Of a DNA stretch of 64,000 nucleotides, positions 11,301 to 61,217 are shown piece after piece. The notes under the pieces were generated by a model. It had not been told where the DNA came from. It did no database searches and worked only from the letters and a program-made list of their open reading frames with translations. The stretch's first letter is position 1. Each line of letters begins with the position of its first letter. The position numbers and the translations under genes were made by a program. Origin of the DNA: Kappaphycus alvarezii (lineage: Eukaryota > Rhodophyta > Florideophyceae > Gigartinales > Solieriaceae); NCBI GenBank assembly GCA_002205965.3, contig NADL03000125.1, forward strand, positions 62,001 through 126,000, written 5' to 3'.

Positions 11301-11301
11301 A

Positions 11302-25606: not shown

Positions 25607-26330
25607 CTAGAAGCTACGTCTCTCTTCCCTTAGATTCCATTTCAGCAACTTCAAAATACTCTTGTACCATTCTAAGTTTCCATACATTACCTCAAATGGG
25701 GAGCGCCTGTCGCTGCCATATGTACCCCTGTAACCGTACAAACCCTTTATCGTAGCGTCCTCCGAGGATGCGCCATTTCCCGGCATGATCCTTGTTATGG
25801 GCTTTTTGACTGTTTCCACCATCCTCTCTGCCGTACCGTTAGACATAGGAGAATATGCCAGGACCATTTTGCTCATAATTCCGTTTTTCCTCATAAATTT
25901 GGCAAGAGATGTAGCCGTAAAGCGAAGCGCGTTGCCTGAAATAATTCTCGTAGGCAGAGCTAAAGACTCGATTATTCCCTTCTTAATAAATTCAATGGCT
26001 CCCTCGGCGCTGGCGTCCTTAACCGGCATTGCAGATGGCCAACCTGTCAGGTGCTCAATTCCTATGAGAATTTCTTTGTTCCCACAAGGTTTTTCCTTGA
26101 AAGGGCCGGCGATACCTAGGGTGAATGTATCAAATAGCCAGGTGATAAGAATAGTGAGAGTGGATTTGTATTTTTGGACTGGAGTGAATTTTTGGCAACC
26201 ATCGCAACTTTTCACGAAGTTATAGATGTCTCTGTGAACGTCTGGCCAGGAAAATCATTCCGTGATGAATGTTTTCGTTGTGCTAAGACCCCAGTGGCCT
26301 AATTCATCATAGAAGGTTCTAAAAATCTTG
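25607..26330 (-). pseudogene. pol: gypsy-3 integrase
   Basis: The frame at 25607-26215 (202 codons) starts at the end of the HHCC zinc finger (CDGCQKFTPV) and contains the catalytic core: FKEKPCGNKEILIGIEHLTG, ALPTRIISGNALRFTATSLA, AYSPMSNGTAERMVETVKK. The block IISGN should be I-I-S-D-N, so one catalytic Asp is Gly; the final Glu of AERM is kept. It stops about 140 bp before the 3' LTR, so this copy lacks the C-terminal Pol extension found in gypsy-4. Confidence 0.7.
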
Positions 26331-26537
26331 CTTCTTTTACTTATTAGAGCCATTATCGGGGGACCTGCTTTTGTCAACCGAAAAAGTTTTTCTTCGCATA
26401 CCAAAACTACTTTTGGTTTCCTCTCACCCAGTCCCTGTGTACCCTACCACTTTTCTTGATCTCCAGCCTCGTCAGAAATTGAAAAAGGGATTTTAGTTTG
26501 GCTTCGAGGTCACCCGAACAAGCCGTATTGTCGATGG

Positions 26538-27720
26538 CTACTTCGGCAATACGTTTTTCTGCGTCTGCGACGTGTACGGTCGGACCCTTGGATCTGGAAA
26601 GAGAGTCTGCTGGCTGGTTGACACTTCCCGGTCGGCAAATGATTTCAAATCTGTATTCTGCGAATAAATCGAGCTATCGTGCCAAACGGTTGTGGACGTC
26701 TTTCTTCTTGAGCGCAGTTTGAGGGCCTGATGGTCTGTTATCAACTCAAATTGTTCTGGTGACAGGAGGTAGACTCGGAATTTTTTAGCGCAAACAACTC
26801 CACCAGCGCCTCTTAATCTCATGCTGTGTACCACCTTTCGACCTCATTCATTGTACGACTAGCGAACTGTACTGGGTGTAGCTTTGCCTTTTTCATCTCT
26901 CTGGGACAACACTGCGCCGACTGAGTGCTTTGAATCGACAGATTCGACGACTAATTGTTTTTTGAAGTTCGGATATTTGAGTACGGGTGGTTTGCACAAT
27001 TTCAGTTTTAGCTCGACAAAAGCGTTTTCCATTTATGGGCCCCAGACAAACTTTCCGGCCTTTGAAGTTAATGTGTGTAGAGGGGCGGCTATGTTAGCTA
27101 AATATGGGATAAAAAGTCTGTAGTACGACGCCAAGCCAAGGAAGCTACATATTTCAGTTTCAAAAGTCGGGCTGGGGTCATTTTTTATCCCAGAGGACTT
27201 TTTTGGGCAAAAGTCAATACCACTGTCGTCCACCACATTACCAAGTAATTTGATAGACATTTGTGCGAAGCAGCACTTGCTCAGTTTGATTTTCAAGTGA
27301 TACCGTGATATCCTTTCCATCACTGCCCTAATGTGGTCCAGATGGGACTCTATTGATTCCGAAAATATCACTAAATCGTCTATATACACTCTTAAAAGTG
27401 ATAAAGCCTTGAATACTTCATTTATAATCCTTTGAAATGTCGCCGCTGCATTCATAAGATGAAATGGCATCACTTCGAATCTGAAAGTGCCAAGTTTGCA
27501 GGTTAAATTTTTCATAGCTTTGAAATCTTCAGAGACAGGTATCTGCCAATATACTTTGTACACATCTATAGATGAAAAGAAGCGCTCTCTTTTCAATTCG
27601 TCTAGAATATCTTCCATGTTTGGAAGATATAGTCGATTGGGGATCATTTTTTGGTGAAGAAAGCGACAGTCGATACAAAACCTCGACCTACCGTCCCTTT
27701 TACGAAGGATAAAAACTAGA
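26538..27720 (-). pseudogene. pol: gypsy-3 reverse transcriptase and RNase H
   Basis: 27033-27647 (204 codons) encodes RT from IPNRLYLPNMEDILDELK to the connection domain, with SSIDVYKVYWQIPV, FEVMPFHLMNAAATF and an intact YIDDLVIFSES. Upstream, FILRKRDGRSRFCIDCR sits in another frame. RNase H follows in pieces (VCAKKFRVYLLSPEQFELIT and DHQALK at 26650-26790), with frame changes and a stop. The intact Y-I-D-D indicates the RT decayed later than that of gypsy-2. Confidence 0.7.
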
Positions 27721-28439
27721 AGAGACCAACCTGACTAGGTTGGCTGAATAATGCCGTTTTGTAGCATATTAGCGACGTTTTATTGTATAATTCCTTCTCA
27801 TTTTGGTGGTTGAAGTGTTTTTCTATGTAAACTGGGCGGTATTTCTCAGCTCGAAAATGTGCGTGACAGGTACTTGGGCCGGTCGCAAGTCCCAAGCGTC
27901 CCAGGCGATCACTTCGTTTAAGGTAAGTATTGTAGCAATTTTCTCCGATTCAGGGAGAGAAGGTTGCTTCAGTTTGTTATGAATAGCCTTCAATTTTTCC
28001 GTTTTGCCCATCATCTGTATGATCTAATCATCTAGTTCCATTTTGGAATTTTTGTAGGTACGGCTAGAATATGTTCGACTGCCGCCACAGTGTTTTATCT
28101 GAGATCTTTGTAATGAGGGAGCCATTGTGCGCCATAATACAGCACTTACGGCCTTCTTTTGCTATCATATGGCGTCCTTTGATGTCTCTTGTGCGATCTT
28201 CGCATAAGGCTACGTATTCGTAGATTTGTGCGGGTCAAATCATCCTATTGCAACCCATACGGTAGCTGGGATCTGCATCGCCGTAGGAGAAGCTCAGAAT
28301 TTTCTCTCCGTCCGATTCTGTTAGCTCTTTCTCTATCGTGACTTCTGAGCCATAGCTATCATAATTGGATGTGAAATCTTCGCTATAGGTCCCACTATAT
28401 TTCCGCAAATTCTTTCTCTTGTCGTAAATCAATTACAGC

Positions 28440-30090
28440 CTCACTTGGTTCCCTTCAATTTGGACTTAGACTGTTTGATTCTCCTGGTCGATACAAGCTT
28501 CCAGTTGCTCCATTGTTGGGCACCTTATAATTGTGTCAAAAGGAATTTCTTGCATCTTTAGGAAGTCTAAACTCACTGTCATCTCCGATAAGAATACTGA
28601 AACCTTTTTCGGTAATGCCGAGGCAGTGAAAAGCGGTCTCTTATGAGATAGTTATCCTCCTAGTTGTCGGAAGCATGTCAAGGCCCAGTTCCTCGACAAG
28701 ATTCCCTGAAATAAGATTTGGGACTGCTCCAGAGATAAATAAAGACGGTGAGTCCCTTCCTAGCATCTTAACAGGCGCTGACTTGAAAACGTCTGGCGGT
28801 AGCCTTTGCAGAGATGACAGCAGTCCTCTTCCCCCTTGCCAGTCTTTCCGGGCCTAAGGAACTTCTTCAACTCTTTCCTCGCATTTTCGGCAATGCCTTT
28901 CAGTAACTGTCCAAAAATCATACCGGATGGAGCCGTAGCAAGCTTGGAAAATAGGCCACTTTTTTCAAAGTATCCTATCAAATCCCTAATCATAAACCGC
29001 GCCTTGCACATTTTCCCTGTTTTCTTTGTCTTCGAAGCCAGAGGCACCTCTGGGGCAATTTTTTGCATTCTTTTCGTTGGAAGTAACAAGGCTCTGGCAT
29101 TTATTCTAACGGTCTTGCCCGGTTTTTTCGATAGCACATTCCCCTCAGCGTCCCTTCTGGTAACGCTAACCTGTTCGGATTCCCGCGCGACTGAAACCGT
29201 CTTTGCGTTAACGGGACCCTTCTCTTGTCCGTTTTTTAACAGCTTCAGCTCGGGTCTGGATTCTACCCTTGCTTCCAGTATTCCTCCCTGGCTCCCATTT
29301 TCCGACAAACAGCTAGTCTCATGATGCCCGTACCGGCCGCATTTTCCGCAAAATGTGTTCCGGTGCGGGTTCTCAGGACACCGGTTAGCGAAGTGCCAAG
29401 GCTTGTCGCAACAGGAGCACACGTCTCCCGAATTCGGGTTCGTAGTCTGATTCTTCCTGATGATAAGAGTGAGGTTCTCGAGGTGCGAAGTTATCAAGTC
29501 CAAGCGGTTGTCTCAGTGGTTCTCTATTTTCTCCTCGAGCTTCCTGGCGTTGCTCCGAACAGACTACGACGTCGCTGCACTCGTGGCCGACCTAGAATAA
29601 TTCTTCTTTGTGTCAAAGATAAATTTCTTCGCATAGCTTTCCCCTTGCTTGTAACCCAGCGACTGGAAAGTTTCGGAGTTCCTGACGTATTTCACGATCG
29701 TATGCTTTAAATCGCCGAACACTCGAGGGCCTTTACTAAGAAGGAAAGCCGCCAGGCGTTTGTCGACCGTAGCTCCTTGCGGAGCATCCCGTACTTTGCT
29801 TCGTCGTTGAAACCTGATTTCTCGTAGAGACTGCACACCCTAACCGATGAACCCAAAAAATCCTGGAAATCTAAGCGACCTTCAATAGCCCTACGAATCA
29901 TCTCATCGGGCTCTACCGCCCTTTCGTATTCCTTAACTAGCCATGCACAAACTTTGTTAAAGTCACGGCCATTTTCATTTAAAGACTATCCGGTTAAAAA
30001 GTTTGCCTAGTACTTCACCCACACGTCGCCAGACAAATAGGCGAAAACACTTGAAGCCTTCTACTCGTCGTTCTTACCTCTCATTAAACC
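28440..30090 (-). pseudogene. gag: gypsy-3 gag and protease
   Basis: 28760-29503 (247 codons) carries two zinc knuckles in tandem: CSCCDKPWHFANRCPENPHR, with the following CGKCGRYGHHETSC. This double knuckle is a signature shared with gypsy-4 and gypsy-e. N-terminal capsid pieces lie at 29564-29901 (IRRAIEGRLDFQDFLGSSVR, VCSLYEKSGFNDEAKYGMLR). The protease trace at 28600-28735 reads ISGAVPNLISGNLVEELGLD, with the active-site D-S-G changed to I-S-G. Confidence 0.7.
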
Positions 30091-30322
30091 ATGAACATAC
30101 GTATAGAGAAATTCTTCCACGTCCTCACTCCTACTACCCTTGACCTGGAAGTAAGCAATTGTGGGGTCCATCATTCGAAAGCTATTATAGTTACTGAAAA
30201 AGCCCCCAACCTTACAAACAAACCGCCAAGTACTGTGCTACCAGTGCAACAAGCCTTGACAGAAGTATTAAATTGTATGGTGGCAATGGTGCCACAAGGA
30301 AAGGGAACCACTAACTACCTGA

Positions 30323-31582: not shown

Positions 31583-33010
31583 TGTCGGGGGTGCGCGAAT
31601 CGGAGCGGATTTTTTCGTCGCCGTCATCTATCGATCTTAAATTTACTATACTACCTCTCCTTGTCCAAAATTGCTTGTAGTTATGGTCCTTCCTCGCCCT
31701 TCCTGACCCTTGCTTATCCTTACCGCGGTCCTCTCCAAGTTCGCTTCCATTTTATCTAGATCTCTTTTTATACTGTATCTACCCCTCAAGGGCGATCCAG
31801 AATCAAGTTCTTTCTCCCTTTTCACTTGAATCCTTCTCCAAATCCTTTTTTTGAGAAAAAAGCCTCAAATTCACTACTATAAATTCCCTTGTAGATTTAT
31901 TTTACCTATTCCAAATATATATAATGCTCCCTCTGGAGTCTATATAAACCTTTTTTCCAACTTTCAAACCTTCCCGATCATTATACTCATCACACCTCTC
32001 CCTCTACCCATTCCAAACACCCTCAATTGCCTACAACTCCGCAGAGCCCACCAAAATGGACAACTTTTGCCCCTCCGGAGTCATTTCCAAAGATCGCCAC
32101 CCTCGCCTCCTAAACGCCATTCCCCTACTCCTTTTCGGCCCTACTGACCGGTATGACTATCTACGACGACAAAAGAAGAAGAAGTTGATCTGATTCGTGT
32201 GTCGCTTTTTCGTCGAGGATGAGGCGGAGGAGGTAGGTGAGAGGCAGGAGTGGGAAGTCAAGGAGGGAGCTTGGGAGACTTTCGAAGAGTGGGCAAGCTT
32301 GGAATTGGTCTACGAGAATGAGGTTGACGAGGACATGGACGATGGGGGGGAGGGAGAAATGGCGAGTGCTGGAATGGTAGGGCCGGGGCTGTACAGTATG
32401 TACCAAGTGGTTTTGAAGCTAGAACCGTATGGGGCATCTCTAGTGGTTAAGATATCTCTAAGGAGGAAATAGAGAGTTATGAGCCCGTCGCGGATACTTG
32501 TGGGGACTGTCTGGGCAGCATGGATATTTTGGAGGATTTTTTGGGATCTGATCCAGAGAATGGGAAATAAGGGGACCAGATCGATTTTTCGTTTCTTAAG
32601 TATCTTTTTTTAGAGTATATCATCCACACATACTGTTTTTATACATTTCGTAGTATCTTTTGTAGTTTTTTTCGGACTTTTGGGGTAGCCAAAAGTTGCA
32701 GACTAAACTGCTTCCTCTTGGAGAGGTCAAGCAAGTTGGCAGAAAACTTTAAGTCAAGTCAAGTCCCAAGTAGTAGAAAGTTGAGAGCCAACTTCAGACC
32801 CAAGAAACATTTTTCCTATGCTGGTCGCAGAGGATCAGTGGTAGACCCGGTCCCTGCTATATTTACTTGTAGCCCTCTCAACTTTCTTCCCTATCTGCTC
32901 CTCTTTGTTGGTTCAACTATAACACGGTAGCACTTTTTGTCGCTTTTAACATCTCCTTCTTTGGGTAGTTGGTTCTGAGTATATCCTCTCCCGGTGATTT
33001 ATCCCTATCA
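31583..33010 (+). repeat. Solo LTR-d with U3 acidic ORF, TSD ATATG
   Basis: 1428 bp, TGTCGGGGGTGCGC at the left and TCCCTATCA at the right, flanked by a perfect 5-bp duplication ATATG (31578-31582 and 33011-33015). The internal order is upstream promoter block (GTCTATATAAACC near 31938-31950), acidic ORF, then the TATA/R/U5 block shared with gypsy-4. The perfect duplication shows the whole 1.43-kb unit integrated or remained as a single LTR. Confidence 0.85.
32056..32570 (+). pseudogene. U3 acidic ORF in LTR-d (one stop, one frameshift)
   Basis: ATG at 32056. MDNFCPSGVISKDRHPR leads to LLFGPTDRYDYLRRQKKKKL, then a TGA, then FVCRFFVEDEAEEVGER, ETFEEWASLELVYENEVDED and SAGMVGPGLYSMYQVV. After a frame change near 32450 it reads DISKEEIESYEPVADTCGDC and GSMDILEDFLGSDPENGK followed by TAA at 32568. 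All blocks of the family appear in order, so the ancestral protein was about 170-185 residues. Confidence 0.65.
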
Positions 33011-33794: not shown

Positions 33795-35271
33795 TGTTAA
33801 GAGAGAAACTGGGGTATTATCCTTACGTACGCAAATTCACTCCCTTTACGTTTCTCTACTCATTCAATTTCATTTTGTTTCTACGCTTGCTTTATTTTTC
33901 TTTTCCATCACTAATTTTACATTTCTCTGCTCTATTTCCTATTTCTCACTCCTCTTTTTATGAACGATTACCTTCCACTTCGATGTTAATTTCTTATTCT
34001 TCTCCGTTTATTTGATCTTCGCCCCCACCTTAATATCTTTTCCATAACGAATTTAGGCAAATTATTTTCGCCATAAATGACCAATTTAAGGAGTTTTTCA
34101 ATAATTCCTACTACAAGATCAATTTTCGCCAACTATTTTGATTCAGCGTACCTATCAATCTCAATCGTTTGGCCTATTGAAATACGTCGGACACCTCTTA
34201 AAATTCATCTTCGCCCCTACAACAACAAAAGCTTGACAAATCGCACCCAACCCTTCGCAGCCATTATGCAAGGACTCCCTCCTTCCCTTGCCAACAACCG
34301 TCACCAAACCCCGTCACCGTCGCTCCATCACTGTCTCTCCTCTATTTCCTTCTGGTCCAGCCGACGTCGAGGACTAACTCTGTTGCCAAACCAAGAAACG
34401 CTTGACAGAGGTGGTTGCTGGCCGCCTGGTGGAGATCGAAGAGCAGGGATCGATAGGGGGGGACTCTGGGGAGGAAGATGGTAAGGCAGGGTGCTTCGAG
34501 GATTGGGTGGCCCCCGAGCTCGTGTACGAGATGGAACAGGGGGAGTACGAGTCCGAGTCCGATGAAGAGGCCAGGGAGGAAGAAGAGGAAATAGAGGAGT
34601 CCGCGGACGAAGAAGGGGACCTCGAACCTGGTAATATGAGAGCAGAAGGAATGAACTTGGTTTACTAGCTATTGCCAGCCATGTAATCGGTTGCAGAGGA
34701 TTTAGGTGAGCTGTATTCTTGTATTCTTGATGGGAAGGGGCGGACAGTTATGGGCCATCCGAGGGTATTTGTATGGAGTACATGGATACTTATGATGTCT
34801 TAAGGGATGTGCTAGGTTATGATCAAGAGGATGAATATCTTGAGGGGTATATTTATTTATTTCTTTCAAGTACTTTCTAAAAAAATCACTGAAGTCTTGT
34901 CCTAATTTTTCTGGTGCTTCTACGAGTTTTATCGAGATTGTTGTCGGGGTGGAGGGTCTATATATGCTAAGTAAATTGCTTCCACCATGCGACAGAAAGG
35001 AAGTTGGCAGATACTTTCAGGTCCAGTCCCAAATAGTTAGAAAGTTGAGAGCCAACTTCAGACCCAAAGAATTTTTGTTACGACAGTCGCAGAGCATAGG
35101 TGATAGAGCCTGCCCCTTAAGAGTTGGCTACTACAGGAGTCGCTCAACTTTCACGCCCACTCCTCTCCACCACCCGTTAATGTCTACCGTAGCACTTTAG
35201 TCGCTCGCAAAGACTCTTACCTCGGGTACTTGGTGGTTTCATCTTCCGTCGGCGCCATTTTCACCCTATCA
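33795..35271 (+). repeat. LTR-e: 5' LTR of gypsy-e, with U3 acidic ORF
   Basis: Right end CACCCTATCA at 35271 is followed after TT by TGGTACTTCTGTCGAGG, the same position and start as the gypsy-4/5 primer binding site, and then by gag. So this ORF-bearing LTR is a genuine 5' LTR. The left end is inferred from spacing in the other copies (TGTTAAGAGAG at 33795) and is uncertain. TATA (CTATATATGCTAAG) lies at about 34958-34972. Confidence 0.6.
34264..34680 (+). pseudogene. U3 acidic ORF relic in LTR-e
   Basis: N-terminal traces appear in two frames; FPSGPADVED corresponds to the GPTDADD block. From 34390 the readable part is QTKKRLTEVVAGRLVEIEEQ, then CFEDWVAPELVYEMEQGEYE, then a long Glu/Asp run ending NLVY. 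EDWVAPELVYE is the most conserved middle motif of the family (FEEWLAPELVYETQ in LTR-f). The C-terminal block is only traceable (YMDTYDVLRDVLGYDQED). Confidence 0.5.
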
Positions 35272-37250: not shown

Positions 37251-37582
37251 GGGGGAAAAGTTTGGGTGCTTTTACACTTGAAAGATTTATATTCGATCTA
37301 TCCTAAAGTTTTGCAGATGTCCGCAATCGACTCAAGAAGGTTTGCCTACACAGTAATGGGGATAAAACTGCGCCCCCTAAAAGGCCACCTTCCTCATATT
37401 CATTGTGGCGTGCTTGATGGCTGGCCTGAAGGTAGCTTTCTTGGGAAGGGGAAAGGTTTGGGGAATGTTTGGTTGTTTTACTCTTGGAAGATATATCCGA
37501 TCTATCCCACGGTTTTCCAGACAACCGCAATCGTCCCAAAAAGGGTATACCGACACAGTAATAGGGGAAGGAACAATGCTCC
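37251..37582 (-). repeat. Two tandem REL tail repeats
   Basis: Two copies (about 37255-37390 and 37445-37582) of the ~150-bp tail found after REL C-termini: GGTGTTTTACTCTTGGAAGA, a CGATCTATCC block, TTTTCCAGACAACC and ACAGTAATGGGG. The minus-sense orientation agrees with REL-2 ending at 37583. Confidence 0.55.
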
Positions 37583-37983
37583 TTAAAATGCTACCTTCGG
37601 GCCAGCCGTCAAGAAGGCCACATTGGACATGACGGCTGCTGCAGCGTGCCTTTGCATCAAAACCACCCGAACCTTTCCGTACTTCTCCAGTGCCCTCACA
37701 GCCAAGTTCCTTGCCACGTCATTTAGCACTGCACATACATCCGGGTGCCAACCTCCAAGAGTGGAGATTGACACAGGCACGAGCCTACCTCTGGTGGAGG
37801 TCGCGATAAAGGATTGATATCTTCTCTACTTTGCATTTCGTGCCGCATTCAGAGAGGACATCGGATTGAAGGCCCTCAGTCTTCTATTGGAGGGAGCGAG
37901 GTGATTCAGGAAGGTAAAATCAAAAAAGTCGGTCCCTCCACTGCTTCCCATTGCCTGGATGTCTGGTCTCGTGCGGTGGAGAC
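37583..37983 (-). pseudogene. REL-2 element: C-terminal endonuclease-like domain
   Basis: Minus-sense continuation of the RT at 40135-41400 after removal of two solo LTRs. It reads RPDIQAMGSSGGTDFFDFT, a P-D-x13-D pattern as in restriction-like endonucleases of R2/CRE-type elements, then SSLNAARNAK, a stop, RRYQSFIA, and SISTLGGWHPDVCAVLNDVA ... LMQRHAAAAVMSN. One in-frame stop. The same C-terminus occurs at 60775-61208, 44538-44877 and 33325-33528, so this is a repetitive family. The role would be target cleavage for reverse transcription. Confidence 0.6.
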
Positions 37984-38317
37984 TGTTAGGCGCAGATTTT
38001 TTTGCCACCGTCATGTACTGGCCTATAGTCTACTGTACTACCTCTCCTTGTCCAAATTTGCTCATAGTTCCGGTCCTTCCTCGTCCTCCCTGAACCTCGC
38101 TTATCATTACCGCGGTCCTCTCCAAATTTACTTCCATCTTATCTAGTTATTTAATACTCTATCTACCCCTCTGAATCGATCGCGAATCATGTTCTTTTTC
38201 CCTTTTTGCTTACCTCCTCCTCCAAATTCGTTTTTTTGAGGAAAAGGGCGCAAATGCACTACTACAAAAATCCCTTCCAGATTCATTTTACCTGTTTCTA
38301 ATTTATAGAACCTGCCC

Positions 38318-38335
38318 CGGGAGCCTACTTAAACC
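38318..38335 (+). promoter_or_regulatory. Candidate TATA box for the U3 ORF
   Basis: GAGCCTACTTAAACCCC lies about 100 bp before the ORF start. The equivalent in LTR-d is the stronger GTCTATATAAACC. Position and conservation suggest that the U3 ORF has its own transcription start, separate from the downstream LTR promoter. Confidence 0.45.
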
Positions 38336-38422
38336 CCTTCATTCCGAGCTTTAAACGTTCCCGACCATTTTGCTCAGCACTCCTCTCCACCTACACACCA
38401 CGCTCACCCCTTTTCCAGAAAT

Positions 38423-39073
38423 ATGACATCAAATCGCCCCTCTGTCTCTATCTCCAAAAACCGCCCTTCCCGTCCCATCAATGGCCTTCGTCTCGCCGCC
38501 TACGGGCCAATTGATGCCGACGACTACATCCGGCGGCGAACAAAGACGAAAATTATCGAGTTCGTTCGCCGCCTCTTCATAGAAGAAGAAGCGAGGGAGG
38601 TAAGTGAGGATGAGACTGAGAAAGTCGAGGAGGAGAGCGGGGAGTCCTTCGAGGAATGGTTAGCCCCTGAGCTAGTGTACGAGACTCAGGAGAAGGATGG
38701 GGTGGATGAAGAGGAGGATGATGAGGATGAGGACGAGGACGAGGTGGATGAGGGAATAGGGGGAATGAAAAGTGTCGGACTGGTGGGGCCTGGACTGGAG
38801 AGTATGGAACAGGTGGTGCCGACTATTGAACCGGATGGAGATATCTTTTGTAGTCTAGATATCTCCCAGGAGGGAATAGAGGGCTATGAGCCATTCGCAG
38901 ATATTTGCGGGGACTGCTTGGACAGCATGGATATTTTAGAGGAGTTGTTTGGATCTGATTTAGAGAATGGGAAATACGAGGACCTCATAGATTGTTATTT
39001 TCTTAAGTATCTTTTGTTTAGAGTATTTCATCCACAAAAATTGTTTCTGTGCATTTCCTGGTACCTTCTATAG
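38423..39073 (+). CDS. LTR-encoded acidic protein (U3 ORF), open copy in LTR-f
   Basis: 216 codons as found, but the ancestral stop lies at 38975-38977, where TAC replaces the TAA of LTR-d and LTR-g; the original protein was 184 residues. Residues 1-56: a basic/hydrophobic block (NGLRLAAYGPIDADDYIRRR, IIEFVRRLFIEEE). Middle: EESFEEWLAPELVYETQ-like segment and an Asp/Glu tract of about 30 residues. End: VGLVGPGLESMEQVVPTIEP, SLDISQEGIEGYEPFADICG and SMDILEELFGSDLENGK. No known domain. The acidic-plus-hydrophobic C-terminus resembles transcriptional activation domains, so a regulator of LTR transcription is one possibility; this is inference. About 91% identical to the LTR-g copy. Confidence 0.65.
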   Translation: MTSNRPSVSISKNRPSRPINGLRLAAYGPIDADDYIRRRTKTKIIEFVRRLFIEEEAREVSEDETEKVEEESGESFEEWLAPELVYETQEKDGVDEEEDDEDEDEDEVDEGIGGMKSVGLVGPGLESMEQVVPTIEPDGDIFCSLDISQEGIEGYEPFADICGDCLDSMDILEELFGSDLENGKYEDLIDCYFLKYLLFRVFHPQKLFLCISWYLL

Positions 39074-39102
39074 TTTTTTTGGACTTTAGGGGTAGCCAAA
39101 AG

Positions 39103-39113
39103 TCTATATAAGC
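39103..39113 (+). promoter_or_regulatory. Main LTR TATA box (LTR-f)
   Basis: TCTATATAAGC within TAGCCAAAAGTCTATATAAG, conserved in essentially every LTR of the family. In gypsy-4 the same box lies at 55479-55486 (minus). It sits downstream of the U3 ORF, as expected for the promoter of the genomic RNA. Confidence 0.6.
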
Positions 39114-39520
39114 TGAGTAAACTGCTTCCTCATGGAGAGGTCAAGCAAGTTGGCAGACAACTTCAAGCCCAGTCCCAGATAGTTATGAAGTTGAGAGTCA
39201 ACTTCAGACCCAAGAATAATTTATTTTACGCTAGTCACTAAGAATAGGTGGTAGACCCTGCCCATTCCATACTAGCTTGTAGCCTATTCAACTGTCTTCT
39301 CTATCCACTCCTTTCTGTTCATTCAACTATACCACGGTAGCACTTTTGTCGCTTGCAACACCTCCTTTTTGGGGTAATTGGTTCTGAGGATTTCTTTCCC
39401 TGCTGATTTATCCCTAACAGAGACCATGGCGTGGCTCTACAACAGGCTGACGAGCAGCTCTTGCCAGGTCTTTCGCGAAAAGGGTTCCTTGGCAATCGTG
39501 TCGGTTGATCCGTTGGGCTC

Positions 39521-45907: not shown

Positions 45908-46936
45908 CTAGCGCTGAGTGTATAGTACATTGATGGCATGTCGTAATCGTTCAAGTTGGTTGTCGGTGATGGCGTTGTTCCGGAGGAGTTCCATGGTCCT
46001 GGTAGCAGTTCTGTAGGGCGTTGTCGTAGGTACTGGGTGATGTGGGAACCAGTGTAGGAACCATCGTAAGGCGAGGCGACGTGGGTGCCCCTTGAGGATG
46101 GGGGAGGTGAGAAAGGATGGGTATGTTCCTATTTGTGTTACGGCGGGTGCATGGCGGGGTGAGAAGCGACGTTGACGGCGGGATGGGGGGTTGTTACGCG
46201 TATTCCAAACGGTGGTGTACAGATGGGATGGGTGCGTCTGGGATGCGGAGGTGAGAGTTTTGTGGAGAACCGAGTTGGTACCAGCGGATCTGATATTTTG
46301 TAGAGTGCGGGCCGCCGTTGACTTGTGGTTGCCTGTGCCCGTTTTGGTGGTGGCTTGGAGAGTGGCGAGGAAATTGGAGGCTTGTGTTTGGAGAAGGCTG
46401 GTGAGATCCGGGATTTGGAGGATGGCCTGTAACCGGGACAAGTGGGTGGTGTTGAATGTGCCTCTTGTACGGAGGTAGGATGCGAAGAGCTGCCGCTGGA
46501 TGGAGAGGTCGGTGCGATGGAGGTCTTCGAGGTCGCGCAGCAGGATTGCGCCGTAGAGGTACGTGCTGCGTATGAAGGTGTGGAGGAGGTGGCCAGGACG
46601 GGCAGGGGTCATGTCAGTAATGAGGAGTGTTGAGTGTAACAGGGACCGGGTGCCATGTAGGGTGCGTTGTGCCCTGATGATGGTCGCGTCAGGGTGTATT
46701 CCGTGGGGGTGATTGTCATCCCTAGGTATGTGGCCTTGTCTGCGTGACGAATCGCCGTGGAATGGATTGTGAGTGGTAGCGCTGGGTGGGCCGGGTGCTG
46801 GGAGATTACTATGCACTTGTTGGGTGCCCAGGTCATTTGTCTGGCCGATGCCCAGCGTTGATATTCGTCGAGGAGAGTATGGAGGAGCGAAGGGTCGTGG
46901 GAGTGGAGGAGGACGTCGTCCGCGAATAGTTTGCAT
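45908..46936 (-). CDS. LINE-B post-RT C-terminal region
   Basis: 342-codon frame, of which the authentic part starts at about 46690 (ATIIRAQRTLHGTRSLLHST) and runs to the stop at 45908. It is rich in Arg, Thr and Leu and contains LLHTFIRSTYLYGAILLRDL, LSIQRQLFASYLRTRGTF and RLALRWFLHWFPHHP, a typical C-terminal tail of LINE ORF2. Before 46690 the frame is antiparallel noise relative to the RT frame. A one-base frameshift separates it from the RT. Confidence 0.55.
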   Translation of the reverse strand: MQTIRGRRPPPLPRPFAPPYSPRRISTLGIGQTNDLGTQQVHSNLPAPGPPSATTHNPFHGDSSRRQGHIPRDDNHPHGIHPDATIIRAQRTLHGTRSLLHSTLLITDMTPARPGHLLHTFIRSTYLYGAILLRDLEDLHRTDLSIQRQLFASYLRTRGTFNTTHLSRLQAILQIPDLTSLLQTQASNFLATLQATTKTGTGNHKSTAARTLQNIRSAGTNSVLHKTLTSASQTHPSHLYTTVWNTRNNPPSRRQRRFSPRHAPAVTQIGTYPSFLTSPILKGHPRRLALRWFLHWFPHHPVPTTTPYRTATRTMELLRNNAITDNQLERLRHAINVLYTQR

Positions 46937-47538
46937 GGAGGAGGGAGGGAGAGGGAAGTTGTGATGGCAGTCAGGGCGTGGGGAAGGTCATTAATAAAGA
47001 CATTGAAGAGGAGTGGGGAGAGAGGGGAACCTTGGGTGAGACCGAGGCGGATTTCCGTTGTCGTAGAGGTACAGTCGTCTCTTGTCCGGACCGTGAGGGG
47101 CAGGAGGCATGCCGTTATCATGGCTGTTTCTGTGTGGGGGAGCAGGCGTCCACAGTCGTGTAAGAGCAGATGACGGTTGACCCTGTCGTAGGCTTTGAAC
47201 ATGTCCAGGGCAACGAGCCAGCGATCCTCTTGGGTAATGACTGCTTCCGTGGCTATGGGAGCGTGAAGGGGGCCTATTCTTCTTTGGAAGCCAAATTGCA
47301 TTGGGTGGGGGTCTGTGAGGTCAGCTAGGAAAGAGGCGAGACCTCCTTCAATGGCTTTCCGGCAGTGCGATAAGAGGCAAAGTGGGCGGTAATTCGCTGG
47401 ATTTTGTTGGTCCTCTCGTTTGTGGACCGGGATCAGGGTTCCTGTTGCCCAGGTTCGGGGGTAGTGGAGCGTTTGGCCTATTGTCGTCCACCAGGTGTAT
47501 AGCAGAGTGGCGAAGAGAACGGGCTCTGTCTTCATCAT
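46609..47538 (-). CDS. LINE-B reverse transcriptase
   Basis: 309 codons with the RT series in order: TLIPVHKREDQQNPANYRPL, FGFQRRIGPLHAPIATEAVI, WLVALDMFKAYDRVNRHLLL (motif A), LGLTQGSPLSPLLFNVFIND (motif B) and CKLFADDVLLHSHDPSLLHT (motif C, F-A-D-D intact). WAPNKCIVISQHP follows. All catalytic Asp residues are kept. The upstream frame 47562-47957 (EFKRLQAVARQQVRREKRWF in an alternative frame) belongs to the linker before the RT. Acts in target-primed reverse transcription. Confidence 0.8.
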   Translation of the reverse strand: MMKTEPVLFATLLYTWWTTIGQTLHYPRTWATGTLIPVHKREDQQNPANYRPLCLLSHCRKAIEGGLASFLADLTDPHPMQFGFQRRIGPLHAPIATEAVITQEDRWLVALDMFKAYDRVNRHLLLHDCGRLLPHTETAMITACLLPLTVRTRDDCTSTTTEIRLGLTQGSPLSPLLFNVFINDLPHALTAITTSLSLPPPCKLFADDVLLHSHDPSLLHTLLDEYQRWASARQMTWAPNKCIVISQHPAHPALPLTIHSTAIRHADKATYLGMTITPTEYTLTRPSSGHNAPYMAPGPCYTQHSSLLT

Positions 47539-47960
47539 CTCAATGTGTATGCCATTATTTCCTACTGCTTTTCCCCGTGGCGCGGTGCAGATGTAGTTGA
47601 GGATGTGTTGTTCGAGCGCCGGTGGGGGGTAAAGGTCTGTATTTGGATCGGGGGTTGTTCCTGATTATGGGCGGTGCCCATGTATATAGTGAAGTCCCGT
47701 GGGGAGAGCTGGCGTCCGTTGCGGTTTTGGTCCGTTTTCCTCCTGGCGGTCTGCCGTCTGCCGTCGATCAGTTGCCACTTCCCTGGTATATTGTTCGTTG
47801 GGGAGGTCTGTGAGGCGGAGCAGGGTCCACTTTTGGAACCATCGTTTCTCTCTTCGGACTTGTTGCCGGGCGACGGCCTGGAGTCTTTTGAACTCGAGAT
47901 AATCCACATATATGTGGTGAAGGTCCAGTCCGTAGTATCCGCACTACCACCATTCAATTC

Positions 47961-48377: not shown

Positions 48378-49092
48378 TGATAGGGATAAATCGGCGGGGG
48401 AAGAGATCCTCAGAACCGATTACCCTGAGAAGGAGGTGTTGCGAGCGACAAAAGTGCTGCCGTGGTATTGTTGAACGAACAAAAGGGAGTGTATATAGAA
48501 GAGAGTTGAGAAAGCTACAAGCAAGTATAAAAGGGGCAGAGTCTACCACGACGCTCTGCGACAGCGTAAGAAAAAGTTTCTTGGGTCTGAAGTTGACTCT
48601 CAACTTCCTACTACTCGGGACTTGGCTTGAAGTTGTCTGCCAACTTGCTTCACCTCCACTAAAGGAAGCAGTTTACTCGGCTTATATAGACTTTTGGCTA
48701 CCCCAAAAGTCTCCAACAAACATACTAATAACCATAAAATGTATTCACGGTAATCGTGTGAACCAGAGAGACTATTAGAAGATATTTCCTCAAGGTAAAT
48801 ATCTAGGTGCCATACCCATGCCAGCCACCATCGGCCAGGGGTGGGAATTGATGTGGCCATTATATAGACCTTTCAGAGCTACTTGTCGTATCACCCACAA
48901 CCTGGAACTGTACTGACATCTACTATGACAGCGTGTCCTAAAATGAAAAAATCACCGACGAATTTGCCACACTCACCCAAATTAAAAATATCTTGCAAAT
49001 TCAAAAACTGTAAAAATATCTTCCCAATTCCGATACTGTATACAATCATGGTCCTCATCTAGATTTTTTCGTGCGCGAATTTGCGCACATCA
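48378..49092 (-). repeat. gypsy-4 3' LTR (715 bp)
   Basis: TGAT...ATCA. Differs from the 5' LTR at about ten positions, most of them single-base insertions or deletions (for example AAGTTTCTT versus AAGTGTTCTT). It lacks the U3 acidic ORF. Confidence 0.9.
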
Positions 49093-49125
49093 CGCCCTCT
49101 CGCTCAAGACGAACGTCCCGACTCG

Positions 49126-50276
49126 TCACTGCTCTTCTTCTGCTTCCGTTAGTGTTCGCTGTCTTATTGATAAAATGTATGGTCTCTCAAACGGGTACGG
49201 ATGCAACTGATTACCAATATGATGCTCTAAAAAGTAGGTTCGCATTACTGGTACCTCACTTTGTAGCATAGCCTCATATATTGGTTTGATCACATCGAGG
49301 TGGGGTTGAATACATTCTTCTTCCGTGACTCTTCCGAATCTTCCAAGAGTGAAAAAATATATGTGATATGCAAACTCTTCTGGAAGATGCCGGAGGAATG
49401 GATGTCGATAAGAAAAGAAGACGCGCATCATCAAGAACGAATCTTCGTAAGATAAGTGCGGTCCATGTAGCGCCCTAAAACATAAACAGATGCTTATCAT
49501 GAAATAAGAAATGACCTGCGCATCGTTCGCATCCTCGGAGATATTGCGCAGCCAAAAAGATAATCTTCTTCTTCCGACTGTATGCTGTGCATGGTTGTGA
49601 AGGAGAGCTAGAGATGAAGTTGTGGTGGACGGTCCCGATGAATGGCCGCGACCAGCTCCTGACGTACTGGGACCTGCACGAGGTCCTCTCGGGGGACGAC
49701 CGGAACCTCTTCTGGGCGGGTTGTTGTCTCCTGAAGGTCCTCCTCTGGTCATCATCACTGCTTCAGGAGGATCCTCGCCGCCTCCAACGTTCCCAATTTG
49801 TGGCGGAGAAACGTAAGGTTCCCATAGAGGATACGGGACCAGCCTGTATTCCATATCCGGGGGTAAGGCGTAACCTCTCAGTCGCACGTCTTGGTTGTTC
49901 TTGAGAAATACGTAAATTGGACGGATAATATTCAGATACGTTTGCGACAAGTCTCCAGCAGCTACCATTCCATATCTTCCTATAGAGTAATGATATATTA
50001 CCTCCACAAACTCTGGACCTGCTTCCGTGAACCTTCCGTTTTGGAATGAAAATAGAACTCTTATTAATAGTCGGAAATCTCTTCAGGTAGCAATGGTCCG
50101 TTCAACGTACGAAAACATAGGCATATATTAATGTAGAAATGGATGATTACGTGGAGTTCGTAGTAGTCCCGCGTAACCGAGATGATCCATTCCCAGGCCC
50201 TTTTTCCTCCCATAGGAATCATTCTATAGTTAAAGATGAGTATGCCCCGTGGTTGCGCATAGTCCTGTGTGAGAAG
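49126..50276 (-). CDS. gypsy-4 Pol C-terminal extension with two related repeats
   Basis: About 383 codons directly continuous with the integrase frame (ORF 50064-50447), then one frameshift near 50075 into the 293-codon frame 49126-50007. Two ~115-residue units share the same plan: unit 1 (about 50162-49809) has FYINICLCFRTLNGPLLPEE, YHYSIGRYGMVAAG, LNIIRPIYVFL and LVPYPLWEPYV; unit 2 (about 49521-49174) has FMISICLCFRALHGPHLSYE, YFFTLGRFGRVTEE, LDVIKPIYEAM and LHPYPFERPYI. A linker of about 95 residues between them is Gly/Pro/Arg/Ser-rich (GGPSGDNNPPRRGSGRPPRG). No family recognised. It occupies the place where env or accessory genes sit in some gypsy elements, but there is no signal peptide or clear membrane anchor. 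Gypsy-3 lacks it. Confidence 0.7.
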
Positions 50277-51391
50277 GAATTCTTCAGGCCTCTGATGGTA
50301 AGGGACCAGACGACGTGCATGGATGGCCCTCCTTGATCTCTTCCCTGAGCTTGAACAGAGCTGATAGTGCGGGTGTCTTTCCTCCGTGACGATGCAAGGG
50401 TTCGAGTACTTGGTTTGGAAGGCCGGCCACTTCACAGCCTGCTGCATTGCTTTTCCATGTACTACAAGTACTTTAGAGCCAACTGAAAAGGTTCTGACTG
50501 CAGGTTCTGCATCCTTATTTCTTGTTGTGTTAGCGCGCGGTGTGATCTCCAGCCTTCGGTGGCCAGTAGTTCAACTTCCCTACTCTCTTCATCGATAATA
50601 TTTGTTTCCATGTCTCTCTGTAACATTCTAGGAGCCCTTCCGTACATTAGCTCGAATGGTGAGCGTCCATTTCTTCCTCTTCTTCGACGGTAGCCGTATA
50701 ACACTTTTGGTAAGGCATCTTCCCACTGGATTTCATTCTCCAACATAGTTTTCGATATTGCTCGTTTGATGGTTCCAACCATCCTCTCCGCTTTCCCGTT
50801 GGACATAGGAGCGTATGCGAGAACGGTCTTCAGCTGAATCCCTTTCTCTTCCAAAAAACGAAGCAGTGAAGTTGCAGTAAAACAAAGGGCGTTATCCGAG
50901 ATGATCCTTTTTGGAAGACCAAACGGTTCAATTATTTCTTTTTCGATGAATCTCAGTACCACCTCAGCATTTGCCTCCTCGACTGCAACTGCTATTGGCC
51001 ATCCAGTAAGATGTTCCACCCCTATAAGGAGATATTTGTTTCCGGAAGAAGTTTCCTTGAACGGGCCCGCGAAGTCAATTGAGAAGGTTTCAAAGAGACC
51101 GGAAACTGGAAAACTTAGAGTTGTCTTATACTTCCGTATTGGAGTGAATTTTTGGCAGTTGTCGCAGCTTTTCACGAAGTTATAGACGTCCTTATGGATA
51201 CCGGGCCACCAGAATCTCTCAGTTACGAATTTTTTGGTTGTTTCGAGATCCCAATGCCCTAGCTCATCATGGAAAGTCCTCAAGATCTTCATTCTTTCTT
51301 TCAAAGGGGCCACTAGTCGGGGACCGGCTTTAGTGTGCCGGAAAGTTTCCCATTCCACAATGTAAAAGCCTTTTGATTCCTGCGTACCCAA
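50277..51391 (-). CDS. pol: gypsy-4 integrase
   Basis: Zinc finger H-H-C-C in FHDELGHWDLETTKKF and YNFVKSCDNCQKF. The catalytic core has SIDFAGPFKETSSGNKYLLI, PKRIISDNALCFTATSLLRF and AYAPMSNGKAERMVGTIKRA: Asp, Asp and Glu are all present. The C-terminal tail in the adjoining frame (50447-50277) reads WPAFQTKYSNPCIVTEE then RRAIHARRLVPYHQRPEEF. A frame change near 51390 separates it from RNase H and another near 50460 separates the core from the tail. Confidence 0.85.
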
Positions 51392-52988
51392 TTTCGGTGT
51401 TCAAGATCAACCTTTCTCATTTCTAGTCCATCGAGGAATTTGATCAGTCCGTGAATATTAGCTTCGTACTCGTTATCGTTCGGCAACTGCAACTCGGCGA
51501 CTCCGACGATGTCCTCCGAAGCTTTTTCATTTGGAATCAGTGCGTCCCTCAAGCGGGATAGGTAATCGGCAGGCTGATTATTGCGTCCGGGTCTATACAC
51601 AATTTCAAACCGATATTCTGCGAAAATGTCGAGCCATCGGGCCAAGCGGTGATGTACATCCTTCTTTTGGAATGCTGTTTTAAGTGCCTGGTGATCAGTT
51701 ATCAAGACAAATTTCTCGAGTGATAAAAGGTATACGCGAAACTTTTTCAGCGCGAAGACGACAGCTAGCGCTTCTTTCTCGCAGACTGAGTATCTCTTTT
51801 CCGCGTCATTCAGAGTTCGGCTTGCGAATTGAACAGGGTGTAGTCTTCCGTTTTCATCTTTTTGGGACAAAACGGCACCCAAAGACCGTTCTGAGGCATC
51901 TGTCTCCACAACGAATGGTCTCTTGAAATCTGGGTACATGAGAACTGGGGGACACATAGCTTATCTTTAAGCTCCTGAAATGCAGTTTCCATTTCCTTGT
52001 TCCAGTAAAATTTTCCGTTCTTCGTAGTGCTGGCATGTAACGGTGCTGCAGTCTTGGCGAAATCTTTGATAAATCTTCTGTAATATGAGGCCAGTCCTAA
52101 GAAGCTTCGGACCTCCGTCTTTGAAGCGGGCCTTGGTGCCAACTTTATTTTTTTCGTTTTCTCTGGATCCACTCTAATTCCCTCTTGGTCGACGATATGA
52201 CCGAGTAATTGGATAGAAGTTTTCGCAAAGAAGCATTTGCTCAACTTAATTTTCAAGCTATACTCCGATATCCTCTCCACAACTGTCTTGACGTGCGAGA
52301 TGTGCTGATCCAATGTTTCTGAGAATATGACGACATCATCGATATAGACTCTTGCGAATGGAAGTCCTTTCAAAACCTCGTTCATCATTCTTTGGAATGT
52401 AGCTGGTGCATTCATGAGACCAAAAGGCATCACTTCGAACCTGAACGTACCGGCTTTGCTGGTAAAGGTTGTTTTTTCCTTACATTTTTCATCCAATGGA
52501 ATCTGCCAATAGCCAGTGTAAAGGTCAATTGAGGTGAAATATCTCCCGTCCTTCAGGTCCTCGAGGATCTCCTCCATGTTCGGAATCGGAAATCGATCGG
52601 GTATCATTCTCTGGTTCAGTTGTCGGTAATCGACGCAAAAACGCAGCTTTCCATCCTTCTTTGGTGCGACCACAACTGGAAACGACCATGGGGATGAAAC
52701 TGGTCGAATAATATCATTTTTCAGCATACTTGTAACATTTTCTGAGATAAATTGGTCATATTTTGGCGGTTGACGTCTAGGCTTGTGGTAAATCGGTTGA
52801 GTGTCGGTAAGTTCGAACGAGTGAGTAACCGGTACACTTGCTTGTCTAAATCTGAAACGCTCCATGCAATTACTTCGGAAGATGTTAACATGTCGGATAT
52901 TTTCAGTGAGGCGGGGCGGGAAGGTGCTGCACTTTTCCTTGGATTTCTGCCATTTGGCGCCCTTTTTCTTCTTGATCCTCAACCTCAA
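51313..52988 (-). CDS. pol: gypsy-4 reverse transcriptase and RNase H
   Basis: The 392-codon frame 51810-52988 holds RT: NDIIRPVSSPWSFPVVVAPK, LRFCVDYRQLNQRMIPDRFP, FTSIDLYTGYWQIPL, FEVMPFGLMNAPATFQRMMN and YIDDVVIFSETLDQH, all intact. After a one-base shift near 51960, RNase H runs in 51313-51957: FVVETDASERSLGAVLSQ, QFASRTLNDAEKRYSVCEKE, ALAVVFALKKFRVYLLSLEK and FEIVYRPGRNNQPADYLSRL. Makes element cDNA and removes the RNA strand. Confidence 0.9.
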
Positions 52989-53206
52989 TATTTTGAAGGA
53001 CCTCTTCCGTCGTGCTCACATCTTCATATATGGAATTCGACGTATTCTTATTTTCTTTGCAAAGGTAATCTTCTTTCATGCTCCGAATTCTGTCCTTTGA
53101 TTCGATATCATCGCAAAAAGAAACACATTCGGGTTTCAAACTTATCCTAGAATCCAGTCGTCATCTGTTTCAAACCCGGAATCATAATCGTCCCATGCCA
53201 TGTTCA

Positions 53207-55086
53207 TTACCCCCGAGGGTACCCTTTTCCACTTCCGAAAGTGTTAGTTGGTTCCGAATCTTCGCTGTCATAGCTAGAAGTGAAATCTTCACTGTCCGTT
53301 TCTTTTAAATCTTCAGGATGCGTGCTTTTGTCGAAATCCAGGGGCATCTTCACGGTTCTGCCGTCAATATTAACTGAAACCATTTGGTTGCCCAAGTCAA
53401 TGCATGTTCCTAGTCTTTCCATTGTGGGGCAGCCAATGATTGCATCGAAAGGGAGATCCGGCATGACAAGAAAGTCTACATCAACTTTAGAGTCCCCAAA
53501 GAACACGGAAACCTTGTCAACAGTGCCCATGCATTTTGAGACGGTTCCATCCGCTACAGTTATTTTTCGAGTCGTTGGAGTAATTTCGAGACCTAGATCT
53601 GTCACCAAAGTTTCTGAAATGAGGTTTGGAACAGCACCCGAATCGAAGAGAGCTTGGGTTTTCATACCCAATACTTTGACTGGTACCAGCTTAAGACGTC
53701 TTGGTGCTGTCGAGGCGATGAAGAAAGTTTCTTACCCTTAGCGGACTTATTAGACCTGATAATTTTTTTGAGTTCTTTTCTCGCATCCTCTGCGTCGCCC
53801 CTCAAAAGTTGACCAAACGTTATCCCAGTTGGGGCCGATGCAAGCTCAGCCACCAAATTGTACCTCTTCACATACTCTAGTACGTCCTTAGAGATACTCT
53901 TAACTTTCTTACTCTTTTTCGTCTTCTTGGCCGGAGTGACTCCCACTCCTGGAACAACTTGATCAGACCTCTTGGTTCGAGGAGGTACAGGTGCTGGGAT
54001 ATGCTCCAGCATTCCATACTCTAGCCTAGGTTTCTTCGATAAAATGTTCCCTTCCCCATCCCTTTTTGTCACATTGACTTGACTAATCTCTTCAGCGATG
54101 GATACGTTACCGGCATCCGTCAACCTTTGATCCCTTCTATTTTGTAAGATTTTCACCTCTGGTCCTGACTCACTCCTTGCTTCCGATAAATTTGCTCTTC
54201 TGTTGTCTTTAGACCAGCAGTTACTTTCATGATGCCCATATCGACCGCACTTTGCACAACGAGTGTTTCTATGTGGATTATCAGGACACCTGTTTGCAAA
54301 GTGTCCAGGCTTGTGACAGTAAGAACAGACTTCTGCGGCCTTAGGGGCCCCAGACTGGTTCTTCTTAATGGTAAGAGTAAGGCTTTCCAACTGCGAGGTT
54401 ATCATGTCAAGTCGATTATCGAATCGGGTTTCCAACCTTTCTTCCAAGTTTTTGACATCGCTCCTGACAGATTCTAATGCCGCTGCACTAGTAGCCGGCC
54501 TTTGATAATTCTTTTCAGGATGTACGATAGACATCGATGTGCGGGTTTCCCTCGGTACCTCACTCAGTGACGTGACTGAAACGTCTCCGAATTTTTGACA
54601 AATTCTACTATGGTACCCTTCAGTTCATCAAAAGTGTGAGGGCCCTTGATGAGGAGGAAATCGGAGAGCCGCTTATCCCCCATAGCCGCCTTACGCAGCA
54701 TTCCGTACTTGGCTTGGGCGTTGAACCCAGCCTTTTCATAAAGATCACACAACATACACCAATGAGCTTAACAAATCGTCGAAGTTGAGCCGGGCCTCTA
54801 TGGGCGGTACGAATCATCTCATCTGGTTCTACCTCCTTAGCATACTCTTTCACAAGCCACTCACATACCTCACCGAAGTTACGCCCATTCCCGTTAAGAG
54901 ACCACCCGTCGATAAACTTGGACTTATATTTGTGCTTTGCGTCACCATGAAGATAGGCGAAGATACTTGCGGCCTTCTCTTCATCGCCCTTCTCTCGCAT
55001 CACAACGTTGACATATGTGTAAAGAAACTCCTCAACGTCTTCAGTCTTGCCCCTGTGAACGTTATACGAGCAGCGTTGAGATCCAT
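53207..55086 (-). CDS. gag: gypsy-4 Gag-protease
   Basis: ATG at 55086 (MDLNAARITF). Capsid: EEFLYTYVNVVMREKGDEEK, ASIFAYLHGDAKHKYKSKF and DLYEKAGFNAQAKYGMLRKA. Nucleocapsid: two zinc knuckles, CSYCHKPGHFANRC and CAKCGRYGHHESNC (near 54320-54230). Protease at 53207-53671: TQALFDSGAVPNLISETLV and LPFDAIIGCPTMERLG. In gypsy-5 the Gag end and protease are one frame (WYQSKIGMKTQALFDSG), so they are made as one polyprotein. Frame changes near 55050, 54800, 54550 and 53670 are each one base. Confidence 0.85.
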
Positions 55087-55156
55087 GATTACAGAAAAGA
55101 AATCCCCCCGAAGTGTTCCTTACTACTGCTCAACTCGAATACCTCGGGTGCAACCC

Positions 55157-55173
55157 CCTCCACAAGAGTACCA
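55157..55173 (-). promoter_or_regulatory. gypsy-4 candidate primer binding site
   Basis: Minus sense TGGTACTCTTGTGGAGG, two bases after the 5' LTR end. The same site follows the LTR of gypsy-5 (61934-61950), and a variant TGGTACTTCTGTCGAGG follows LTR-e. I could not name the matching tRNA. Confidence 0.5.
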
Positions 55174-55175
55174 AA

Positions 55176-60774: not shown

Positions 60775-61217
60775 TTTAGGTTTGTTCCAGTCGTAGAGCC
60801 AAGCCATGGCCTCCACCGCACGAGACCAGACATCCAGGCATTTGGAAGCAACGGGGGGACCGACTTTTTGATGTTACCTTCGGGAACCCCCTCGCTCCCT
60901 CCAACCAGAAAGTGAGGACATTCAACCCGATGTCCTCTCTGAATGCGGCACGAAATGCAAAGTAGAGAAGATATCAATCCTTTATCGCGACCCCCACCAG
61001 AGGTGCGCTCGTGCCTGTGCCAATCTCCACTCTTGGAGGTTGGCACCCGGATTTATGTGCAGTGCTAAATGACGTGGCAAGGAACGTGGCTGTGAGGGCA
61101 CTGGAGACGTACGGAAAGGTTCGGGTGGTTTTGATGCAAAGGCACGCTGCAGCAGCCGTCATGTCCAATGCGGCCTTCTTGACGGCTGGTCCGAAGGTAG
61201 CATTTTAAGGAGCATAG
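60775..61217 (+). pseudogene. REL-2-type C-terminal fragment
   Basis: Closely matches 37583-37983 plus 39425-39460, without the LTR-f insertion. Reads DVTFGNPLAPSNQKVRTFNP, SSLNAARNAK, a stop, RRYQSFIATPTRG, then 61011-61208 open: PVPISTLGGWHPDLCAVLND and VLMQRHAAAAVMSNAAFLTA. The tail begins at 61209 and is cut eight bases later by gypsy-5. The shared stop codon after NAK shows both fragments descend from one already defective copy, or that the stop is an error or recoded. Confidence 0.65.

Follow-up and report, generated by a model that had tools for sequence, protein, structure and literature searches.

The long terminal repeats (LTRs) of a Ty3/gypsy-type retrotransposon family in the red alga Kappaphycus alvarezii carry a gene for a strongly acidic protein within U3, upstream of the main TATA box; one complete element has this gene in each of its two LTRs, and many copies of it are open. 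It looks like a U3 gene of the family and not a passenger, and we put the probability that it is a selected LTR gene at roughly 0.9, on the strength of sequence comparisons within the window (the whole 64-kb stretch of DNA that was analysed) and across the genome. The original prediction, that a gypsy lineage here expresses an accessory or regulatory protein from its LTR, is supported by the position in U3, by the LTR contexts of the genome copies and by the signature of selection; the accessory or regulatory role is what we infer beyond these.

A tblastn search of the window with the proteins of LTRs F and H found the acidic ORF, at E<=1e-3, in eight LTRs only, each match in sense to its LTR, and the eight LTRs with a sense ORF or relic that had been proposed beforehand were borne out by DNA comparison and by these protein matches. 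With F as query, E values were 2.8e-45 (D), 7.9e-37 (B), 1.4e-17 (G), 1.0e-15 (E), 1.2e-6 (A) and 2.6e-5 (C), their significance partly raised by the acidic run because the search was run without low-complexity filter or composition adjustment. The ORF is open in F and H. LTR F (37984-39419, +) is a solo LTR within a 5-bp duplication, GAGAC, and its ORF (38423-39073, +; 216 aa) starts about 440 nt into the LTR and extends beyond the stop position of H and of the copies fetched from the genome. LTR H (58969-60407, -) contains an ORF of 186 aa (59412-59972, -). The other six are relics with stops or frameshifts: D (31583-33010, +; pieces at 32071-32190, 32194-32436 and 32451-32567; duplication ATATG), B (18629-19943, -; pieces at 19396-19635 and 19082-19366), the divergent type E (33795-35271, +; pieces at 34297-34374, 34378-34665 and 34731-34853), G (56881-57868, -; N-terminal part of the ORF at 57330-57506), A (5181-6511, +; pieces at 5624-5755 and 5785-5874) and C (20463-21822, +; relic at 20925-21032 and C-terminal remnant at 21286-21420). 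F and H are 92% identical in DNA and F and D 72% across nearly the entire LTR; in nucleotide comparison B aligns to F over the 3' 700 bp, and A, B and C align mutually in their 5' part.

In all eight LTRs the ORF lies upstream of the main TATA box (39105-39111, + in F), as had been claimed. LTR E is followed by TTTGGTACTTC, the primer site, and by gag, and the duplications ATATG (D), GAGAC (F) and GGGTT/AACCC (H) were likewise seen. The GGGTT duplication of H is reached only at 58870, 99 bp past the usual LTR end at 58969, and this extra tail (58870-58968) ends like a second LTR end, ahead of the target duplication. Judged by eye, A, C and G show no target duplication at their boundaries and B shows one with a mismatch. 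The claim that the same blocks occur in the same order holds for D, B and E; of the blocks, G, A and C retain only some.

Several features of the surroundings deserve mention in their own right. LTR A sits between stretches (window region 4419-7188) that resemble one RT-bearing region, 45973-47708, and looks like an insertion into another element. An inverted repeat of about 410 bp (93%) abuts F at 37573-37981 and K, described below, at 60811-61218. The 15-bp flanks of F (37979-39424) and those of an LTR at the genome locus L021 (7288-8719) are reverse complements with one mismatch; taken by their flanks, the two LTRs occupy the same site of a repeated sequence in opposite orientations. Further diverged gypsy-type regions lie at 10374-12939 (-; RT, RNase H and IN) and 25679-30207 (-; gag to IN). 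A vanadium-haloperoxidase-like gene (15856-17361, +; DUF6851 and VCPO second domain) gave 60 protein matches, the best at 80%, two from the red alga Agarophyton chilense, the sole eukaryote named in the set, at about 42% and the weakest bacterial; this gene is the strongest pointer to the host group.

The genome was searched in its own 336-Mb assembly of 884 contigs, in which the window occupies bases 62001-126000 of contig C124. With the F LTR as query, the 40 matches scored of 4845 candidates were F itself and 39 others at 86-93%, H included. A set of 33 LTRs was assembled from the window and 28 fetched loci, with D and L013_1298 at 72-75%; 15 of them span the full query, and of these six have a perfect 5-bp duplication and one more matches at 4 of 5 positions. 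Four of the 33 continue directly into the primer site TTTGGTACTC, and in 14 a frame of 166 aa or more opens with ATG. With the H protein as query, the best 150 of 9952 candidates were scored and yielded 206 matches. Counted by eye, the full-length or near-full-length matches listed number 94, of which 70 (F and H included) are stop-free and 24 have one or two stops, a share biased upwards by the choice of best-scoring candidates. Twenty of the 70 stop-free matches (19 at 76-83%, one at 88%) were fetched with their context. An LTR core (TATA/R/U5) lies downstream in 20/20, at 84-88% identity, and 19/20 have an ATG-to-stop frame of 172-196 aa with the start codon at a matching place; the open frames are partly a selection effect of the sampling, the LTR context is not. 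The E-type query gave 150 matches scored of 3461 candidates, mostly with stops. Two E-type copies were fetched and the core is downstream in both; L062 is open, with one stretch seemingly out of register, and leads on to a primer site and gag, and L061 is open across most of the ORF. The expectation that genome copies of the ORF would lie inside LTRs agrees with each of the 20 copies fetched with the H protein, all of them stop-free members of the 94 listed, and with the ORF in both LTRs of the complete element on contig C77.

The gene has 172-196 codons in the 19 fetched copies, and its product begins with a basic part, contains one predicted helix and an extended Asp/Glu run, and closes with an acidic segment that ends in MDILEELFGSDLENGK or close to it. 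In five copies, the N-terminal 49 residues are basic (pI 10-11) and the remainder strongly acidic, for an overall net charge of -35 to -49. The Asp/Glu run is encoded by a repetitive purine tract whose length varies between copies. F, H, D, B and C all have a recognisable acidic segment at the C-terminus that contains leucine and phenylalanine. The predicted structure has a helix at residues 32-61 (block pLDDT 76-87), the rest being of low confidence (mean pLDDT 55.4). A homologue search of 5.8 billion proteins yielded 1260 candidates and none at E<=1, and an alignment-based search scored 8000 candidates and found none at E<=10, both searches needing shared exact 5-residue words. There was no match among viral contigs, a set from which records near the source genome may be left out. 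Pfam gave none at E<=0.001 and, at E<=1, a single sub-cut-off match, to Cwf15 (E=0.075); solved structures gave one match only, at E=0.24.

F and H differ at 26 of the 555 sites of the ORF and at 82 of the 881 sites in the rest of the LTR (p=0.0013). Among the 28 pairs of window copies, which are not mutually independent, the pN/pS bootstrap interval is below 1 in 24, with estimates of 0.29-0.71 (F-D 0.38, interval 0.29-0.49; F-B 0.43, 0.35-0.54; F-G 0.31, 0.20-0.47; D-B 0.51). Many of these pairs are close to saturation at synonymous sites, and the alignment of the acidic stretch is poor. The interval includes 1 in four window pairs (F-H, 0.23-1.13; G-C; E-C; A-C) and also in F-L057, F-L041, L060-L057, L060-L041 and L041-L057, as it mostly does in recent pairs. 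Three E-type relics compared among themselves gave 0.94, 0.98 and 0.74, with intervals including 1; such near-neutral values are expected for dead copies and are no support for selection. The third codon position is the fastest in 27/28 pairs, in 9/28 at p<0.05 uncorrected, and its excess is strongest in G-H (p=0.0001) and F-G (p=0.0004).

We also compared variants by frequency class in 51 F-type copies, with the acidic run left out. Nonsynonymous and synonymous changes (N/S) number 193/55 among singletons, 72/18 among variants in two copies, 17/6 in three to five and 16/19 in six or more, and the three codon positions hold 85/82/81 of the singletons and 7/8/20 of the variants in six or more copies (p=0.011 for the latter). 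The N/S contrast between singletons and the most widely shared class has an odds ratio of 4.17 in the true frame (p=1.5e-4), at a cut of six picked after the table was seen; the earlier cut, at three or more copies, gives p=0.0025, and a 31-copy version of the test is weaker (p=0.09). The contrast is graded, in that the classes of two and of three to five copies resemble singletons and only the class of six or more is clearly lower.

These data bear directly on the suggestion that there is no gene at all and that a chance frame has stayed open in a purine-rich tract. The origin of the Asp/Glu run in a repetitive purine tract of variable length would fit such a chance frame, and noncoding pseudo-frames put through the same test lean weakly the same way, with odds ratios of 2.00, 1.18 and 1.93 at the cut of six (p=0.07, 0.69 and 0.08) and one of three at p=0.026 at the cut of three. 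However, the signal comes from the N- and C-terminal parts with the acidic run excluded, readings of the same sites off frame are flat or opposite (odds ratios 0.38 and 0.64), and deep pairs show the third-position excess. We rejected a chance ORF on these three points, and regard it as hardly credible. Neutrality, a dN/dS near 1, was not what deep comparisons gave, either pairwise or in the most widely shared variants, and purifying selection in these comparisons and on widely shared substitutions is well supported. Our reading is that copies decay neutrally after insertion and that the lines still moving have preserved the protein.

Other LTRs of the window, which the original prediction did not mention, share the core with the ORF-bearing ones and have no ORF. 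LTR J (55176-55893, -) is the 5' LTR, with a U3 that does not contain the ORF, of a full-length element whose internal region (49093-55175, -) encodes gag, PR, RT, RNase H and IN and then ORF3, and whose 3' LTR is I (48378-49092, -). This element has TG..CA ends on its two LTRs, a primer site and the target-site duplication CTAGT outside J and I. A second ORF-less copy has LTR K (61218-61931, +) as its 5' LTR and is cut off by the end of the window. The pol order in the J/I element is protease, RT, RNase H, integrase, the same as in elements on contigs C77, C181 and C794; the RT of the elements matches RVT_1 in a Pfam scan, and the gypsy assignment is by pol order. ORF3 of J/I (49129-50570, -), between IN and the 3' LTR, contains a repeated domain, two 56-aa segments of which are 39% identical, and has no Pfam match. 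It is present in C77 and C794 also, and is separated from the 3' LTR by a purine-rich tract.

LTR B has a 5' end like that of I, J and K, and these three match B both there and in the stretch directly after the ORF; by these matches B links the ORF-bearing with the ORF-less LTRs. Taken alone, the match on both sides of the ORF could be read as the trace of an unrelated gene or element that was inserted once in an LTR and has been carried without function. Against such a passenger, LTR types that have diverged widely (A/C, B, D/F/H/G and E) all have the ORF at one position, every one of the 20 fetched contexts is an LTR, the deep comparisons have a synonymous bias, and no homologue was found elsewhere in searches of limited sensitivity. 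We consider a passenger very improbable and rejected it for its LTR context, its placement in diverged types and the synonymous bias. The ORF was probably lost in the I/J/K line, on parsimony judged by eye, because diverged LTR types carry it.

The complete element on C77 has the ORF in both LTRs, gag to ORF3 between them and a flanking duplication, TCTAC. Its 5' copy of the ORF is open (199 aa), with the acidic stretch partly out of register, and its 3' copy is frameshifted; the 3' LTR terminates in TGA instead of TCA. The two LTRs differ by 10 substitutions in 1500 aligned positions, and their 5' ends consist of repeated units with ATGGTCCTCCC that are different in the two (C77:7036-7120, L025; C77:14594-14700, L031). 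Between C77 and J/I the internal region differs by 1+0+7 = 8 substitutions in about 6.06 kb and the core by about 4%, and the U3s have no match at E<=1e-20. Near-identity inside combined with unlike U3s indicates that the U3 module was recently exchanged, and U3 looks like an exchangeable module, for which template switching in reverse transcription may be the route. The element at C794:302559-310184 (L014/L030) has a 5' LTR with the ORF and a J-type 3' LTR without it and appears to be recombinant. Another copy on C794 has gag to ORF3 behind a 5' LTR with the ORF, and the stretch fetched showed no 3' LTR. Gap openings exceed substitutions in these comparisons (28 vs 8 between C77 and J, 17 vs 10 between the C77 LTRs). 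The small gaps between near-identical sequences are probably long-read indel errors, and frameshifts in single copies are therefore to be read cautiously, in either direction.

The ORF is absent from the U3 of I/J, K and the C181 element, and the LTRs of the I/J and C181 elements differ by 3 substitutions in 720 aligned positions. These ORF-less elements look recently inserted, and the gene is therefore dispensable in cis.

In LTR F, the conserved core (39073-39419, +; R/U5 limits approximate) comprises the main promoter, R and U5. Apart from the main TATA box, a TATA-like box (TACTTAAACC; 38326-38335, +) lies 97 nt upstream of the ORF start and is a putative promoter of the U3 gene. Such an upstream box is found in F, H, D and G (4/8 window LTRs) and in 16/26 fetched F-type copies, and the pattern missed A, B, C, E, the other 10/26 F-type copies, L061, L062 and L013_1298; these are raw counts of pattern matches. 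The R region (39135-39225 and homologues) contains repeated AAGTTG/CAACTT blocks that form a long hairpin in F, E and J and not in L062; covariation lends this hairpin slight support, and it is a weak lead.

Retroviral genes that reach into U3 often start internally, as do nef and foamy-virus tas/bet. By analogy, the LTR ORF could be the 3' portion of a longer gene whose start lies in the internal region and whose expression depends solely on splicing of the full-length RNA, and the elements do have an extra ORF between IN and the 3' LTR. Yet the F ORF starts well inside the LTR, the ORF is inside both C77 LTRs, nearly all fetched copies (19/20) have a start codon at a matching place, the purine-rich tract separates ORF3 from the 3' LTR, and more than half of the fetched F-type copies have the upstream box. 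A longer gene is for these reasons improbable. We favour a U3 gene with its own promoter, represented in F by the box that resembles TATTTAAACC, 97 nt ahead of the start codon, and whose RNA would end in the R region of the same LTR; a single LTR would therefore be a complete expression unit. Reverse transcription would copy U3 into both LTRs and LTR-LTR recombination would leave solo LTRs, and the gene would therefore be seeded genome-wide as stand-alone copies. A selected LTR gene expressed in this manner, whatever its role, is in our judgement quite probable.

What the protein does is a more tentative matter. One possibility is a trans-acting nuclear protein that regulates the LTR promoter of the family: its basic part would contact nucleic acid, and its acidic tail, which contains leucine and phenylalanine, would work as an activation domain does. 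Such a role in trans would account for the recent mobility of ORF-less elements with a near-identical internal region. It is equally conceivable that the selected gene serves particle assembly, the handling of nucleic acid or histones, or escape from silencing, and not LTR activation. The long Asp/Glu runs and the mostly low-confidence model are as in disordered proteins, and such acidic disordered features are as compatible with a chaperone-like or histone-binding protein as with an activator; the absence of the gene from some recent elements would also fit a helper supplied by other copies. However, nothing in these data favours an assembly or handling role over one in transcription, and the C-terminal acidic segment of F, H, D, B and C can be read as activation-like. 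With a trans-acting regulator, the LTR may be a self-contained cassette of promoter, coding U3 and RNA end whose product acts family-wide, and the solo LTRs, as a rule dead scars, may make up a large gene family dispersed over the genome; elements of one internal region would exchange U3 modules, some containing the gene and some lacking it; we offer this as a working model, and with reserve.

LTRs are generally treated as non-coding, and MMTV-type sag is the standard exception. As a protein gene in sense within U3, sag is the nearest textbook parallel to the acidic ORF, a likeness of location only: MMTV is a mammalian retrovirus and its product a superantigen, whereas the present family is a gypsy-type retrotransposon of a red alga, and Pfam scans found no homology of the acidic protein to the superantigen family. 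The available text of PMC4667437 calls LTRs ordinarily non-coding and describes sag as lying mostly within U3, with several promoters, one of them inside U3, and most endogenous copies found as solo LTRs. The acidic ORF differs from foamy-virus Tas in lying wholly inside U3 and in that transactivation is here only proposed, and homology to Tas was likewise absent from the Pfam scans. Foamy-virus Tas overlaps with U3. In the accessible part of PMC4929722, the accessory regulator Tas/Bel1 is described as binding both the LTR and an internal promoter and activating them. Plant LTR retrotransposons have extra ORFs (Grande gene23, RIRE2, Retand, env-like) that are family-wide accessory genes, the gene23 product being nuclear and the gene having its own promoter; these ORFs are internal, mostly between pol and the 3' LTR, and none inside an LTR is described in the portion of PMC7264820 that was available.

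The family resembles Ty3/gypsy elements (Metaviridae) in the order PR-RT-RNaseH-IN, the primer site, the purine tract before the 3' LTR and the 5-bp duplications, and is unlike them in its protein-coding U3. A full-text literature search, with subscription journals largely outside its scope and sources available in part, found no coding U3 described in a Ty3/gypsy retrotransposon; wording that suggested an LTR ORF referred, in the text seen of PMC12037069, PMC4016481, PMC1142308 and PMC11117352, to pol ORFs, non-LTR ORFs or long LTRs, and the text seen of PMC11963269 has no phrase on an ORF inside an LTR. We conclude that this is a real LTR gene in an unusual host, very likely under selection, with a coding U3 of a kind that is known and for which we found no described case in the Ty3/gypsy group. 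If true, a retroelement gene could persist in solo LTRs and remain available well after its element has disappeared, which would matter for annotation, for silencing and for the conflict between host and element in a lineage that has been little studied. The elements C77 and J/I, alike inside and different in U3, make the role of the gene directly testable. The coding-U3 layout for which MMTV is the textbook case would, if true, also have arisen outside the vertebrate retroviruses.
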